Origin: Balneolaceae bacterium
Lineage (GTDB): Bacteria; Bacteroidota; Rhodothermia; Balneolales; Balneolaceae
DNA length: 64,000 nucleotides
Reading direction: 5' to 3'
Assembly (NCBI GenBank): GCA_017643365.1
Contig: JAEPNO010000002.1
Span: 157,849 to 221,848, forward strand
In this document: one piece after another, positions 9,275-33,847 of the stretch
Layout: each line of letters opens with the position of its first letter
Numbering within the stretch: the stretch's first letter is position 1
Notes under the pieces: model-generated
Seen by the model: only the letters and a program-made list of their open reading frames with translations
Databases searched by the model: none
What the model was told of the DNA's origin: nothing
Program-made: the position numbers and the translations under genes

Positions 9275-9714
9275 CACCTAGCGCAAGCTACGCTTGTGCT
9301 TTCCTCATACTATCGATGTAACATTAAAATTAATTTGATTCTCTAAACAATCACAGTATGCTGAAAGAACTATAATTGCTTCACCTTCTTTCAATGCAGT
9401 TATTTTTAACATGGATAGTCGTTCATTTTCATTTGGGTTTTGTACCTCAACTACATCAATTATTCCTATTCCTGATAGATTGCTTTTGTCGTAGACTATA
9501 CCACCTTCAGAACAAACGAATACTGGAGGATTGGTTAAATCCAAAAACAATATATCCCCAACCGTCATTGTAATGTCTTCAATAGGATTTTCTACGACTA
9601 GTGTACCCTCGCATAGACCATCTCGTGTGCAACTCCCACTAGTAAAACCTATAGCTAGAGATAAAATTAGTAATGGATATAAGGTTTTAAAACTCATAAT
9701 ACACCTAGCGCAAG
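9275..9714. repeat. 13-base direct repeats flanking a small secreted-protein gene
   Basis: CACCTAGCGCAAG occurs at 9275-9287 and again at 9702-9714, bracketing the gene at 9305-9697. The left copy continues into an imperfect hairpin (AGCGCAAGC with GCTTGTGCT). Two exact 13-base copies only 430 bases apart are unlikely by chance, so the pair may mark the edges of an inserted or duplicated segment, or be two copies of a dispersed hairpin repeat. Confidence 0.5.
9305..9697 (-). CDS. Small secreted protein or lipoprotein with a Big2-like domain
   Basis: The open frame reaches 9727, but the signal peptide begins at the internal ATG at 9697 (MSFKTLYPLLILSLAIGF), giving 130 residues. The signal peptide ends before GSC, a possible lipobox. 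The mature part has the pattern of a bacterial Ig-like Big2 domain: an early DITMTVGD strand and a late LKITALKEGEAIIVLSA strand. Four further Cys are present. It resembles the 136-residue protein at 32591-33001 in size, export signal and strand pattern. No function can be assigned. Direct repeats flank it and no partner gene is adjacent. Confidence 0.6.
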   Translation of the reverse strand: MSFKTLYPLLILSLAIGFTSGSCTRDGLCEGTLVVENPIEDITMTVGDILFLDLTNPPVFVCSEGGIVYDKSNLSGIGIIDVVEVQNPNENERLSMLKITALKEGEAIIVLSAYCDCLENQINFNVTSIV

Positions 9715-10222
9715 TCACAAAGCACAAAAGATTTCAGATTTACATTAATACTAGTATCCATCAAGCAAATAAAAATGATTTGCATGTTGGTATTATAAAA
9801 CTTGAATTACATTACCAAAAATATTGGTTTTATGGCTTAATGCAAGTTATAAATTGCGGTACTAAAAGTTTTAAGTCACAGACTTAAAATATCTTTTGGG
9901 GGCGAGAAAAGTGAATACGATATTAGCCAAAATACCGCTGATCCTTCGCTTTCACTCATGATGACCACCAATCAAACGATCCAGATTGAAACGCATAAAC
10001 AAAGTCTCCCTCTCCTATTGTAGGAGAGGGAACAAGGGAGAGGTCAAATAATAATCCGTTTCGATTTTTAAATTAGAAGCTGGAGCTTCTGGCAATGCAT
10101 TCCGAAGGCGGACCATCGGAACGAGAATCAAACAAGAGTGAGTTCAATTAAAAAACTTTCGTGTTTTTGTGCTTTCGTGGCATTAACACCTTTCGTGCTT
10201 TAGTGCTTCCGTAGCAATAGTA
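9698..10222. repeat. Gene-free gap with repeat elements
   Basis: About 525 bases with no credible gene. It holds the right copy of the 13-base direct repeat (9702-9714), the best-preserved CTCCCTCTCCTA palindrome (10008-10030), a GAAGCTGGAGCTTC palindrome (10077-10090) within a GCAATGCATTCCGAAGGCGGAC..CGGAACGAG element, and two tandem variants of the TTTCGTG..GTGCTTTCGTGGC repeat (10157-10215). Between 9720 and 9900 I see only AT-rich sequence. Confidence 0.75.
10001..10049. repeat. CTCCCTCTCCTA palindromic element, intact copy
   Basis: CCCTCTCCTA (10008-10017) and TAGGAGAGGG (10021-10030) form a perfect 10-base stem with a three-base loop, followed by AACAAGGGAGAGGTCAAATAA. It is the most intact of three copies in this part of the window (others 8716-8764 and 9180-9222). 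Confidence 0.7.
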
Positions 10223-11833
10223 TCAGTCCCAAGAACCGTACATCGCGTTGGGTAGAATTAGAATGTCTATGCCTTGCAGCTGTAGAAACTCTTCGAGATT
10301 TACGTTTTCTTGCGTCGTGAAAATGAAATCCTTGATGTTATCCCCTACTTGCATAATCACTGCCAATGGCTGGTTCCATGCAGCTTTCGCTTCGGGGTGA
10401 CTTTCCCAGCAGTAGCTTGCTTCGCCTGTCATAATCTGATTTCTACGCAGGTCCTTATCGTTTACAATTCCGGGACGTCCAACTGCTTCTTTGTCTTCTG
10501 CCGCTCTGCCCATGATGCAGGTATTAGCTCGGGTAATCGGGTAGCCTAGTTTTTCGAGATTTGACCAAGTGTGTGCATCCATTTCGCGGTCGCGATTGGT
10601 GATGAGTGCGATTTGACCGCCATTCGAAAGTACAAACTCCACAAATTCTTTCGAGCCCGGTACGATACCGGCTTCTTCACGCATCACCCACTCGTTCCAG
10701 CTTTCGGGAGTGAACGACAATCCGGCCACATCCCGACTATAATTGTATGCGCTGTTATCCAGAATCGTTTCGTCAACATCCATAAAAACCACCCATGGCT
10801 CGTTTTCGGGGATATTTGCTTCCAGATTTCCCATCGCCATTTTATAAAGCGATGCTGTGATAAGCCTGTATTCAGCGCTGTTTTGTGTCCAACGCACTGC
10901 CGTACTTGGCGGATGACTTTCCGAAAGATTGAAATTCAAATCCAGCCCAACCGGACAGTGATCACTCAACATATCTTCTTCCGTCATGTTCTCATCCGTA
11001 AAGAAAAATACTTGCTCACTTCCTTCTTCATAAAAATTCAATGCAGCTGATCCAACCACAACATGATCGATCGGCGCCGGATATCTTGGGTGACATCCAC
11101 GAAGATTTGCCATGCTGTTGCGTAGTTGCACAGGCGCGCCGTCCATGGTTGTTAAATCGCTCCATAATCGGTTTTCCGGCTCCACAATTCTGTGATTGAA
11201 ATCCCCCAAAACTACAAACCCGGTATTACTTTCGATGCGCTCTTCGATCCATTCATCCAAAATCGGAGCTTGTTGCTCGTAAGTTTCGCAAGCATCACGA
11301 TCTGAAGTCGAGTAATCGTTCACAAAACAACCTGATTTCATATGCACGTTCATCACTTCAATTGGCGATGGACCATCAAGAAGTTTGATTACCAAGCCAT
11401 GGCGTAATCCGCGTCGATTCAATGCCAATTCTTCAAAACTGCCCAGATTTTCGAAATTCACCCCTTTTCGGATCGCATACGCTACTTTTTGCTGTGTGGA
11501 TGGTCGACCACTTCCACGGCACTCGTAAGCTTCAGTGTCTGGCCGTTCCGACATCACAATGTTCCAATCACTTAAAGGAAATACCCGGGCAACCGCTTTG
11601 GCCGATTCAACTTCTTGAAGGGCAACTACGTCGGCGCTCATGGTAGCTGCAAAGGTGCGGAGTTTAGCGTAATCTGCTTCGGTGCGAGCTACACATCCTT
11701 CGCCATCATTTTCGGCAAGGTGTTCGATGTTCCAAGTTACGATGCGAATTTCATCGGATGGTGTATTCTGTGCAAAAACTGATGCGTTAAATCCTAGAAA
11801 AACCAGAGTGAGGAATAGCATTTTTTTAATCAT
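10223..11833 (-). CDS. Secreted fusion: EEP-family nuclease plus class-B-like HAD acid phosphatase
   Basis: A 536-residue protein with a signal peptide (1-21, ending FAQ) and two enzyme domains. Residues 28-305 form an endonuclease/exonuclease/phosphatase domain: LQEVE at 72-76, GDFN at 210-213, IDHVVVG near 255 and SDHCPV at 290-295. Residues 318-536 form a HAD phosphatase of the acid-phosphatase class B / lipoprotein e(P4) type, with the nucleophile motif DVDET at 352-356, preceded by a YRLITASLY helix and followed by an ALITNRD motif. The pairing suggests that the nuclease cuts nucleic acid and the phosphatase removes phosphate from the products, for phosphorus or nucleoside salvage in the periplasm or outside the cell. 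It is followed upstream by lepB after 85 bases. Confidence 0.9.
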   Translation of the reverse strand: MIKKMLFLTLVFLGFNASVFAQNTPSDEIRIVTWNIEHLAENDGEGCVARTEADYAKLRTFAATMSADVVALQEVESAKAVARVFPLSDWNIVMSERPDTEAYECRGSGRPSTQQKVAYAIRKGVNFENLGSFEELALNRRGLRHGLVIKLLDGPSPIEVMNVHMKSGCFVNDYSTSDRDACETYEQQAPILDEWIEERIESNTGFVVLGDFNHRIVEPENRLWSDLTTMDGAPVQLRNSMANLRGCHPRYPAPIDHVVVGSAALNFYEEGSEQVFFFTDENMTEEDMLSDHCPVGLDLNFNLSESHPPSTAVRWTQNSAEYRLITASLYKMAMGNLEANIPENEPWVVFMDVDETILDNSAYNYSRDVAGLSFTPESWNEWVMREEAGIVPGSKEFVEFVLSNGGQIALITNRDREMDAHTWSNLEKLGYPITRANTCIMGRAAEDKEAVGRPGIVNDKDLRRNQIMTGEASYCWESHPEAKAAWNQPLAVIMQVGDNIKDFIFTTQENVNLEEFLQLQGIDILILPNAMYGSWD

Positions 11834-11918: not shown

Positions 11919-13034
11919 TTAGTCGATGATGTGGAAGATTCTACTGAAACGCGGAACCATGCCATCCAGCGACATCCAAACGATAAACGCCTTTCCGATG
12001 ATATGATCTTTCGGAACGAAGCCCCAGAAACGGGAATCTTCCGAGCTATCGCGATTGTCACCCATCGCAAAATAATAATCTTGCTTAACGGTGTATCGAT
12101 TGGTTCGCTCGCCATTGATGATAAATTGATTGCCATCTTGTGTGACTTCATTTCGCTCATAGCGTTCGATCAAATCTTTGTACACAAACCAGTTTTGAGG
12201 AGTTAGTTCAATCTCTTGTCCCTCGAATGGAATCACGATTTCAGAGAGGTGGTCGTGGTTGTTTTGTGATCGGGAGAAATTGCCATCGCTGTTCACATAT
12301 TGGCTCAATCGTTGATCTTCATCAAACATAAAATAGTACAAAGTGTCAACTTCCGGCCATGAGCGTACCGTTTCAGCAACTTCTTCGGTCAGGTTTACCA
12401 AATAAGTATTCGGCTCTTGTTGTTGCCCGATATATCGCTCACTTCCACCGATGGTTCCTGCACCGGCCGATTTCATCTTGGCATCACTTAACCGAACACG
12501 ATCGTTCATTTTGATAATATGAAAACGCTGAACACCATCATGATTTGGTTCACGTTCGCCATTCACATAAACGACCTTGTCTTGAATTTCCAGCGTATCG
12601 CCTGCAACGGCAACTGCCCGTTTGATGTAATTGGTTTTTTGGCTGATGGGTTTCACTTCCCAAGGCACATTAAATACGATAATATCATTGCGCTCTACAT
12701 CTCTAAAACCCGGTAAACGCGTGTTTGGAATTTTCACTCCCGGCAGACAAATCTGAGTAAAAGGCACGCAAATTGCCATCGGAGTTCGGGCTCCGTAAGT
12801 AAGATTCGATACGATCAGAAAATCGCCGATGAGTAAATCCTGCTCCATCGAGCCGGTAGGAATTTTATAAGACCCGAAGATGAGTGATCGCAAAATAGCC
12901 GCTGCGATGAATGCAAAAACCAACGCATCGAGCCATTCGCGTAGCCATGATTTTGCTTTTTGTTCGTCCCGATCGGCACCATTGCTTTTATCTGTGCCTG
13001 AATGTTCTGTAGAATTTTTGTTGTTGTCTTCCAA
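11919..13034 (-). CDS. lepB: Signal peptidase I
   Basis: Cleaves signal peptides from exported proteins at the outer face of the inner membrane. The 371-residue protein has a charged N-terminus, one membrane segment (about 36-52) and the catalytic Ser62 in KIPTGSMEQDLLIGD. The catalytic Lys is K138 in NYIKRAVAVAGD, and the C-terminal box FAMGDNRDSSEDSR is clear. It is longer than E. coli LepB mainly through the segment between the Lys box and the C-terminal box, as in other FCB-group enzymes. It lies 13 bases after an unknown secreted-protein gene, which overlaps lepA, so lepA-unknown-lepB looks like one operon. Confidence 0.95.
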   Translation of the reverse strand: MEDNNKNSTEHSGTDKSNGADRDEQKAKSWLREWLDALVFAFIAAAILRSLIFGSYKIPTGSMEQDLLIGDFLIVSNLTYGARTPMAICVPFTQICLPGVKIPNTRLPGFRDVERNDIIVFNVPWEVKPISQKTNYIKRAVAVAGDTLEIQDKVVYVNGEREPNHDGVQRFHIIKMNDRVRLSDAKMKSAGAGTIGGSERYIGQQQEPNTYLVNLTEEVAETVRSWPEVDTLYYFMFDEDQRLSQYVNSDGNFSRSQNNHDHLSEIVIPFEGQEIELTPQNWFVYKDLIERYERNEVTQDGNQFIINGERTNRYTVKQDYYFAMGDNRDSSEDSRFWGFVPKDHIIGKAFIVWMSLDGMVPRFSRIFHIID

Positions 13035-25859: not shown

Positions 25860-27095
25860 TTACTCCGCGGCAGGATTTCCAATCTTGCCGATAAACAAAA
25901 TAGCGCCGGTACTTTTCTCGCGTAACAGCAGTAAATAAGGCTGGTTGTATACAATAGTTGGATAACTTGGTCCTGTACTTTCTGTTGTTACTGTTACTGC
26001 AGTTACCGCTGCAGCTTCTGTGCCCTCTTCATTCATTTTTAAGAAGGTTTTCTGCAACACACTCGATACATACAAATTATTGATCGTGGTAAATAAGTTA
26101 GTTAGATCTGCGCCTCCCTCAATAAACAAATCGTTCATCCCTAAGGATTGTAAATCAGGAATTAACTGACGTTGATATTCGAGCTTTAATTTTGGGATAA
26201 GGTATCCGACTTGCCCTTTTCTAAGATCAGATATCCAAGTTTGAAGCTGAGCTGCATTAAGCCTTGATTCGATTAATTCATCAACCGAAGAATACTCAGC
26301 CCCCGGTTTTATAAACAGCGCACTGAATTTGTCATTCCCGTAGGGTAGCTCAACCATCTCAACTTCATCGTTGATCAGATACCCCACTTCGGCGGTTTGA
26401 TTCATCATCTCAACCGACACGGTCGTGTTCTCATCCACATAAAATTCCCAGTCTTCGGTAAACTCTGGATCAAACTCGTATTTCCACGGACCATTGAAAT
26501 ACACCGCATTGATCAAAAACATTACATCGTCTCCACTTATCCTCTCGATGATTTTTTCGATTCGATCGTTAGTTTTGTCAGCCACCCAACCGTTTATTAC
26601 ATCAAGTGTTTTAGGATCGGCAAAATCTAAACTACTCGTTTCTGCATCGAAGTATTCTTCCACCGTTGTTAAAAACTCGGGATTAACCTCAAAGCCTTGT
26701 TTCGACCAAACTGAGTTTGCAATTTTCAACTCAACCTTGTCGTCGGCGTTTTGCAAATCCTGCAGTAAAGCCTGATAGCCTTTGTTAATTTCTCCTTTAG
26801 TCAGATCGCCAAAACCCAAGGTATTTTGCATCTCCACAAAAGTATTACCGGCGGCGCCATTCATTGTCATACCCAATGCCATTGAAGCGCTAAGTGGAGA
26901 TATGAAGATGTTTTCTGCTAGCGAATCTCCTTGATGAACGGCAGTAAAAAAATCGATGCTAAACCCTGAATCTGCCTCAATTAATTTGGCTTTTGCGGCT
27001 TGTACTTCAGGATCTTCTTTTGATGTATTGGTGGTATCGCAGGCAGTTAGTCCTACACCAATCAGAACGGTCAAGAGAATATAAATGTGTTTCAT
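25860..27095 (-). CDS. Serpin lipoprotein (serine protease inhibitor)
   Basis: A 411-residue protein with a lipoprotein signal (LTAC, Cys19) and a full serpin fold. It shows ISPLSASMALGMTMNGA near residue 66, FLINAVYFNGPWKYEFD near 193 and the C-terminal VYNQPYLLLLREKSTGAILFIGKI. The reactive-centre hinge reads EEGTEAAAVTAV, the small-residue pattern of inhibitory serpins. Counting P17 from the first Glu puts a Glu at P1 and Ser at P1'. That would favour a Glu-specific protease, but P1 assignment by counting can be off by a residue. Lipid anchoring places it at the periplasmic or outer surface. Confidence 0.93.
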   Translation of the reverse strand: MKHIYILLTVLIGVGLTACDTTNTSKEDPEVQAAKAKLIEADSGFSIDFFTAVHQGDSLAENIFISPLSASMALGMTMNGAAGNTFVEMQNTLGFGDLTKGEINKGYQALLQDLQNADDKVELKIANSVWSKQGFEVNPEFLTTVEEYFDAETSSLDFADPKTLDVINGWVADKTNDRIEKIIERISGDDVMFLINAVYFNGPWKYEFDPEFTEDWEFYVDENTTVSVEMMNQTAEVGYLINDEVEMVELPYGNDKFSALFIKPGAEYSSVDELIESRLNAAQLQTWISDLRKGQVGYLIPKLKLEYQRQLIPDLQSLGMNDLFIEGGADLTNLFTTINNLYVSSVLQKTFLKMNEEGTEAAAVTAVTVTTESTGPSYPTIVYNQPYLLLLREKSTGAILFIGKIGNPAAE

Positions 27096-33058: not shown

Positions 33059-33847
33059 ATGAAATTACTTATCAGTTTTTTAATCGCCTTAATTTCCTTT
33101 TCAGGAAGTACAGAAACTGAATACGAATCCCGCCGTTGGGGACAGGTTGGCCACCGTGCTACCGGATATATCGCCGCAGAGCATTTAACAGATCAGGCTG
33201 CCGCTGAAGTTGCCCGTGTTTTAAATGGAGATTCCATCGCCGAAGTAACTACCTGGATGGATGAAGTTCGCTCTGATCCAAACTTTAGGTTTATGTCGCC
33301 GTGGCACTATTGCACCATTCCCGAAGGCATGACGTACGAAGAAGCCGGAACTCCAGAAGAAGGCGATATCCTTTGGGCTATCGAAAAAATGGTTACCGAG
33401 CTAAAAGCCGGTGGATTATCCCCCGAACAAGAAGCCATCAACCTCAAAGTATTAATTCACTTGGTTGGAGATTTACATCAGCCACTTCATGTTGGCAATG
33501 GCACCGATCGTGGTGGAAACGATGTTCGTGTGCAATGGTTTGGTGAAAATTCGAATCTGCATCGCGTTTGGGATAGCAATATGATCGACAGTCGCCAACA
33601 TACCGGGCGTGAACTTGCCGATTTTTCGGATGATCAACTCACCGACGAACTCATTGCAGAATGGCAAAGTACTTCTTGGTTAGATTGGGCCTACGAATCG
33701 AAGGCGCTTTTGCCACAGGTTTACGATTTTGAAGGTGACCGACTCAGCTATGAATATGGGTTTTTGAATTTTGAAACCGTAGAAAAGCGAATTGTACAAG
33801 CGGGTGTTCGATTAGCAGGATTAATAAACGAAATCTACTCAAACTGA
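33059..33847 (+). CDS. S1/P1-type zinc nuclease, secreted
   Basis: A 262-residue protein with a signal peptide. The S1/P1 fold uses three zinc ions bound by conserved Trp, His and Asp: here WGQVGHRATGYIA near residue 27, PWHYCTIP near 81, LIHLVGDLHQPLHVGN near 131 and HRVWDSNMID near 164. Such enzymes cut single-stranded DNA and RNA and release 5'-nucleotides. The family's Trp is normally the first mature residue; here a few residues (ESRR) precede it. The stop overlaps the start of the next gene by one base. Confidence 0.93.
   Translation: MKLLISFLIALISFSGSTETEYESRRWGQVGHRATGYIAAEHLTDQAAAEVARVLNGDSIAEVTTWMDEVRSDPNFRFMSPWHYCTIPEGMTYEEAGTPEEGDILWAIEKMVTELKAGGLSPEQEAINLKVLIHLVGDLHQPLHVGNGTDRGGNDVRVQWFGENSNLHRVWDSNMIDSRQHTGRELADFSDDQLTDELIAEWQSTSWLDWAYESKALLPQVYDFEGDRLSYEYGFLNFETVEKRIVQAGVRLAGLINEIYSN

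Follow-up and report, generated by a model that had tools for sequence, protein, structure and literature searches.

An EEP domain fused to a predicted class C-like acid phosphatase in Balneolaceae: a candidate exported enzyme for gaining phosphate from nucleic acid

In Vibrio cholerae the extracellular nucleases Xds and Dns release nucleotides, which the periplasmic enzymes UshA, CpdB and PhoX then dephosphorylate (PMC4723616, PMC6746945). Class C acid phosphatases are anchored in the membrane by an N-terminal lipid (PMC8475336). The stretch of DNA analysed here, 64,000 nucleotides from a Balneolaceae bacterium (the window), encodes both an EEP domain and a predicted phosphatase of class C type in a single open reading frame, with the following parts:

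10223..11833, minus strand: fusion gene for an EEP domain and a putative class C-like acid phosphatase, ATG to stop with the stop included, 536 amino acids
11768..11833, minus strand: signal-peptide-like N terminus, residues 1-22, SPI-like and with no lipobox Cys, as judged by eye
10928..11758, minus strand: EEP (DNase I fold) half, residues 26-302, assigned from PF03372, the predicted DNase I match (Z 20.2) and invariant residues
10226..10927, minus strand: predicted class C-like HAD-IIIB acid phosphatase half, residues 303-536, assigned from PF03767, TIGR01533 and class C structures (Z 22-25)

This two-domain fusion is real. The first-pass annotation had described two enzyme domains fused in one frame and had the coordinates right, as both families score above their curated Pfam cut-offs, PF03372 (EEP) over residues 32-266 (E 1.4e-11, 45 bits against 24.5) and PF03767 (HAD-IIIB acid phosphatase) over residues 313-535 (E 2.4e-30, 106.2 bits against 27). 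Because length and both domains are preserved in the 13 fusions that we aligned, which are 42-81% identical to the window protein, the frame is neither a chance product nor an assembly join, and the same architecture occurs in independent genomes, including two named MAG records. The motifs that had been quoted as catalytic are present, GDFN at residues 210-213, SDH at 290-292 and DVDET at 352-356, and the catalytic-type residues checked are invariant in all 13 aligned fusions, which rules out a degenerate half and bears out the earlier view that both domains are intact. Without residues 1-22 the protein has a mass of about 57.8 kDa and is acidic, with a computed pI of 4.5. Eight cysteines are invariant in the alignment of the 13 fusions, and these would fit an exported, disulfide-bearing protein. 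The N-terminal lipid anchor that is a trait of class C enzymes was looked for by eye: a lipobox-like Cys stands at the start of five of the six fusions from a second family (f9) and is absent from the window protein and the other fusions of its own family (f1), which show the same SPI-like start. The full-length model, built from a 13-row alignment, is middling (pLDDT 71.8, pTM 0.51) and its domain arrangement is of low confidence, so we make no claim on domain orientation; its structure matches are to EEP structures only, and the phosphatase half was modelled separately.

The phosphatase half is predicted, from sequence profiles and a structural model, to be class C-like, of the e(P4)/5'-nucleotidase type, and the class-B-like assignment made at first has to be given up. 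Modelled alone from a 34-row alignment, this half reached a mean pLDDT of 94.2 and gave Z 25.4 against the class C structure 3pct (200 residues aligned, rmsd 2.6) and Z 24.2 against e(P4), compared with 18.7 for plant vegetative storage protein and 12.0 for the class B enzyme AphA. Its matches include e(P4) complexes with 5'-AMP and NMN, at Z 24-25, and a class C phosphatase of Sphingobium sp. RSMS, titled non-specific, at Z 22.3. The sequence comparisons agree: TIGR01533, the e(P4) 5'-nucleotidase equivalog, is the best NCBIfam match, with 128 bits against a cut-off of 216.05 that it does not reach, and the seven sequence matches among solved structures bear the names class C acid phosphatase, lipoprotein E / P4 or acid phosphatase. 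The Pfam name Acid_phosphat_B (PF03767), which covers HAD-IIIB, may be the source of the earlier class B reading. Three stretches of this half matter for what follows:

10766..10780, minus strand: HAD motif I DVDET, residues 352-356, of which D352 and D354 are shared by all 34 aligned phosphatases
10409..10519, minus strand: stretch from Cys439 to Cys475 around NDKDLRR (motif III Lys460), an insertion seen only in phosphatases of fusion type
10325..10345, minus strand: HAD motif IV GDNIKDF, residues 497-503, of which D498 and D502 are shared by all 34

All 13 fusions have D352, D354, E355, T412, N413, K460, D498 and D502, and D352, D354, N413, K460, D498 and D502 recur throughout the 34 aligned phosphatases, with Thr or Ser at position 412 in every row. 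W379 and Y532, both invariant in the fusions, align with Trp91 and Tyr221 of e(P4), which Singh et al. reportedly described in 2010 as the aromatic site that holds the nucleotide base. The strict two-part sequence signature of class C acid phosphatases, said to go back to Thaller in 1998, is found in none of the 13 fusions, but of the 14 ordinary class C-like rows no more than 7 fit one or other of its patterns, and the relaxed patterns D.DET and GD[NDT]..DF match all 34 phosphatase rows. A phosphatase tree of 49 rows sets the fusion-type sequences together (support 100/100), apart from 28 ordinary ones; in the alignment, all 20 fusion-type rows have Cys439 and Cys475, which none of the 14 ordinary class C-like rows has. 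We read the fusion-type phosphatases as a distinct branch of the class C-like enzymes. The fusion gene is the one PF03767 gene in the window's whole genome.

A search for the domain pair across genomes, which the first-pass annotation had suggested, recovered 13 fusion-bearing genomes among the 244 of the class, seven of them in f1 (7 of 92 genomes of that family) and six in f9, and none in any other group searched; among genomes sampled from the phylum the count was 9 of 394. Armatimonadota had it in 0 of 124 genomes (E limit 1e-10), viral contigs held no relative, phages had no fusion and two records with phosphatase-only matches, and plasmids, by which alone Pseudomonadota were covered, gave 47 and 44 matching records, none covering 80% of the query. 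A virus- or plasmid-borne fusion was thus looked for and found in none of the viral contigs, phage or plasmid records. A scan of genome contigs, which detects close relatives only, returned two fusions and one EEP-only locus. In one genome (G283) a second EEP/phosphatase-type fusion was suspected and rejected, the class C-like phosphatase there (L040:3470-5095, a 541-aa frame) carrying a long, unrelated N-terminal extension. An Armatimonadetes MAG (L034) has two EEP genes close together, in plus-strand frames at about 5188 and 7896.

Seven of the 92 genomes of the window's family, all of one genus (g11), encode the phosphatase half, 54-57% identical, without the EEP half:

L039:6477-7337, with relatives at L048-L053: standalone, lipoprotein-like phosphatase of fusion type, genus g11, no EEP half

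The four of these proteins that were checked all begin with a lipobox-like LLFC, and no EEP gene of the fusion kind was found in the 14 kb covered at one g11 locus. Because these genomes have the phosphatase without its partner, the pairing is dispensable. The phosphatase tree unites the g11 proteins and the f1 fusions (99/98), leaving the f9 fusions outside, a topology that fits two separate fusion events as well as a single one after which g11 lost the EEP half. Free trees of both halves do not group the fusions together, and in the EEP tree the f9 fusions have a standalone Pseudoalteromonas protein as their neighbour (support unstarred). Trees in which all 13 fusions were held together were not rejected by AU tests, which were run after the trees had been seen (p-AU 0.0939 for the phosphatase half; for the EEP half 0.0909 with one long branch and 0.157 without it), and a single origin of the fusion is possible.

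In the window the fusion lies beside a lepB-like gene and not beside phosphate genes:

11919..13034, minus strand: signal peptidase I-like gene (lepB), upstream of the fusion across an 85-base gap, named from its sequence and from the lepA-lepB order in E. coli

In the window and at a locus of the same genus (L032) the order on one strand is lepA, a 193-aa gene, lepB and the fusion, lepA being named from its E. coli match and lying two genes upstream of lepB. Neighbours vary by genus, no operon partner is conserved across all fusions, and promoter and terminator scans gave matches at the shuffle (chance) level. In one genome (G187, L046:10002-13047) the fusion is followed on the same strand by genes for a calcineurin-like phosphoesterase and a purple acid phosphatase, and in all four genomes of genus g31 (G239, G328, G525, G526) the gene immediately upstream of the fusion, on its strand and 17-30 bases away, encodes a TonB-dependent receptor:

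L041:6535-8754, L043:5717-7957, L081:1037-3256 and L080:8453-9265 (the last at a contig edge), same strand as the fusion: TonB-dependent receptor genes of genus g31

The metallophosphatase genes downstream in the one case and the receptor upstream in the other give modest support to a role in phosphate or nucleoside gain. The best named matches of the g31 receptor are ZnuD-type zinc receptors and haem receptors, far below the cut-offs (ZnuD, 210 of 950 bits), and on these profile scores its likeness does not appear to point to nucleotides. The S1/P1 nuclease that had been noted in the same region is indeed encoded in the window (33059-33847, plus strand; PF02265, E 1.9e-60) and is the genome's only PF02265 match; some 21 kb separate it from the fusion, to which it is not linked. 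Directly downstream of the fusion, at 9305-9727 on the minus strand, is an ORF of 140 aa that, judged by eye, may start with a signal peptide; it has no Pfam family above cut-off and no relative in the loci fetched, including L032. In two f1 genomes the gene directly upstream of the fusion (L045:9514-11535, L046:6173-8224) encodes a glyoxalase / cytochrome c / rhodanese multidomain protein. Elsewhere in the window, at 25863-27095 on the minus strand, a bacterial serpin gene (PF00079, E 4e-105) lies beside histidine-biosynthesis genes.

Our results lead us to propose, with a probability of roughly 0.55, that the fusion is exported and, as diesterase and monoesterase in one, converts nucleic acid to nucleosides and phosphate. 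The N-terminal EEP domain would hydrolyse phosphodiester bonds, most likely those of extracellular or periplasmic nucleic acid, to give nucleotides, and the C-terminal class C-like HAD phosphatase would strip the phosphate from these by way of an aspartyl-phosphate on Asp352, with Asp354 as the acid/base of this step, so that nucleosides and phosphate would become available for uptake. The nucleic acid substrate, the order of the steps, the coupling of the domains and the scavenging role are all what we infer. In the EEP half the two quoted motifs lie as follows:

11195..11206, minus strand: EEP motif GDFN, residues 210-213, read from the sequence, with D211 and N213 invariant in 13 fusions
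10958..10966, minus strand: EEP motif SDH, residues 290-292, invariant in 13 fusions

Invariant in all 13 fusions are N35, E74, H164, D211, N213, D256, H257, S290, D291 and H292, which presumably play the roles of the conserved EEP active-site residues (N, E, H, DxN, D/H, SDH). The EEP part of the model has DNase I as its top fold match (Z 20.2, 224 residues aligned, rmsd 2.9), tied with TDP2 (Z 19.9); nocturnin comes a little lower at 18.9, as does human neutral sphingomyelinase at 18.4. When a profile built from 18 EEP halves and relatives is searched against the PDB, bacterial sphingomyelinase C is instead the best match (1.9e-6 and 3.1e-6, against 2.7e-3 for DNase I), a weak one at 30.7 bits, and the fusion protein passes no NCBIfam nuclease model, the ExeM/NucH extracellular DNase model NF033681 giving 10.9 bits against a cut-off of 300. 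The EEP half might thus be a phospholipase C or sphingomyelinase-type enzyme, or another phosphodiesterase with a substrate other than nucleic acid, and the phosphatase would then free phosphate from the head group or monoester and make the protein a scavenger of lipid or other organic phosphate, a reading to which the match to the Sphingobium phosphatase titled non-specific also lends support. We consider this rather unlikely, since the fold ranking is led by DNase I and TDP2 and not by sphingomyelinase C, and since all fusions and all aligned standalone relatives have an Arg (Arg144 in the window protein) where DNase I, as we align them, has its DNA-contacting Arg and where the aligned sphingomyelinase has Lys. 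On the sequence comparisons and the model together, a nuclease appears the likelier reading of the EEP half.

A separate question is whether the two halves work on one substrate. They may be joined and yet act independently, the EEP half, for example, on biofilm nucleic acid and the phosphatase on cofactors of the NMN/NADP type, on which e(P4) is known to act, with the fusion an accident kept by co-export. The lone, lipoprotein-like phosphatase of g11 and the low-confidence domain arrangement of the full-length model (pTM 0.51) would suit such independence, as would the nearest standalone EEP relatives seen, which are plasmid-borne in Pseudoalteromonas and Sphingomonas (39% identity over the aligned half), annotated by superfamily only and with no phosphatase gene annotated alongside. 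The fused form has nevertheless been kept over a deep divergence, the window protein and the f9 fusions being 42-45% identical with both active sites intact, and we regard independent halves as quite improbable. For the two-step conversion of nucleic acid, then, speak the invariant active sites, the match of the phosphatase to e(P4), W379 and Y532, and the top fold rank of DNase I; against it stand the sphingomyelinase C profile match, the absence of a passed nuclease model, the adjacency to lepB, the zinc/haem-like receptor and the dispensable pairing. It is tempting to go further and to speculate, more tentatively, that Balneolaceae and a related family have, on the cell surface or in the periplasm, a one-polypeptide nucleic-acid-to-phosphate enzyme in which an EEP nuclease feeds a tethered phosphatase from a previously undescribed class C-like subfamily marked by a Cys pair; in one lineage a lipid would anchor this enzyme and a dedicated TonB-dependent receptor would be coupled to it.

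Both enzyme kinds are known; what is new is their combination, together with a phosphatase branch specific to the lineage. The first-pass annotation knew the two families as separate secreted proteins. A named architecture for the fusion was found neither in NCBIfam nor, by title and the start of the abstract, in the open-licence PMC literature; the open-licence PMC papers likewise contained no description of the fusion, and architecture databases may list the pair without comment. As both parent families are well known, the surprise lies in the combination and not in the chemistry. Known DNA-using bacteria rely on separate nucleases and phosphatases, and one exported chain would, if our proposal is true, be a compact and portable tool for phosphate scavenging. 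It would also suggest a substrate for this class C-like phosphatase branch and offer a clear test of extracellular substrate channelling.

Among described enzymes, the phosphatase half most resembles e(P4) (TIGR01533, PF03767; PDB 3pct, 3ocu, 3sf0), with which it shares a predicted fold at Z 24-25 over about 200 residues, the DxDET and GDNxxDF motifs, the motif III Lys and the aromatic positions W379 and Y532. It differs from e(P4) in being only 25-26% identical, below the TIGR01533 cut-off, and in having a private Cys pair and insertion and an EEP domain, and the fusions of the window's family do not look like lipoproteins. The other half shares its predicted fold and catalytic-type residues with EEP nucleases (DNase I, TDP2, ExoIII and the secreted Xds/ExeM type), whereas its identity to the listed structures is 13-20%, it passes no Xds/ExeM cut-off and it is followed by a C-terminal phosphatase; by Pfam the fusion has no OB or LTD domain, both of which are described for Xds in PMC6746945. 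Bacterial sphingomyelinase C, of the same EEP superfamily, is the best PDB sequence-profile match, yet the match is weak and the fold ranking favours nucleases. With the V. cholerae route described in PMC4723616 the fusion shares the same proposed chemistry, from DNA to nucleotides and on to nucleoside and phosphate. In contrast to that route, which uses separate proteins and phosphatases of other families, the fusion would bring these activities together in a single exported chain.
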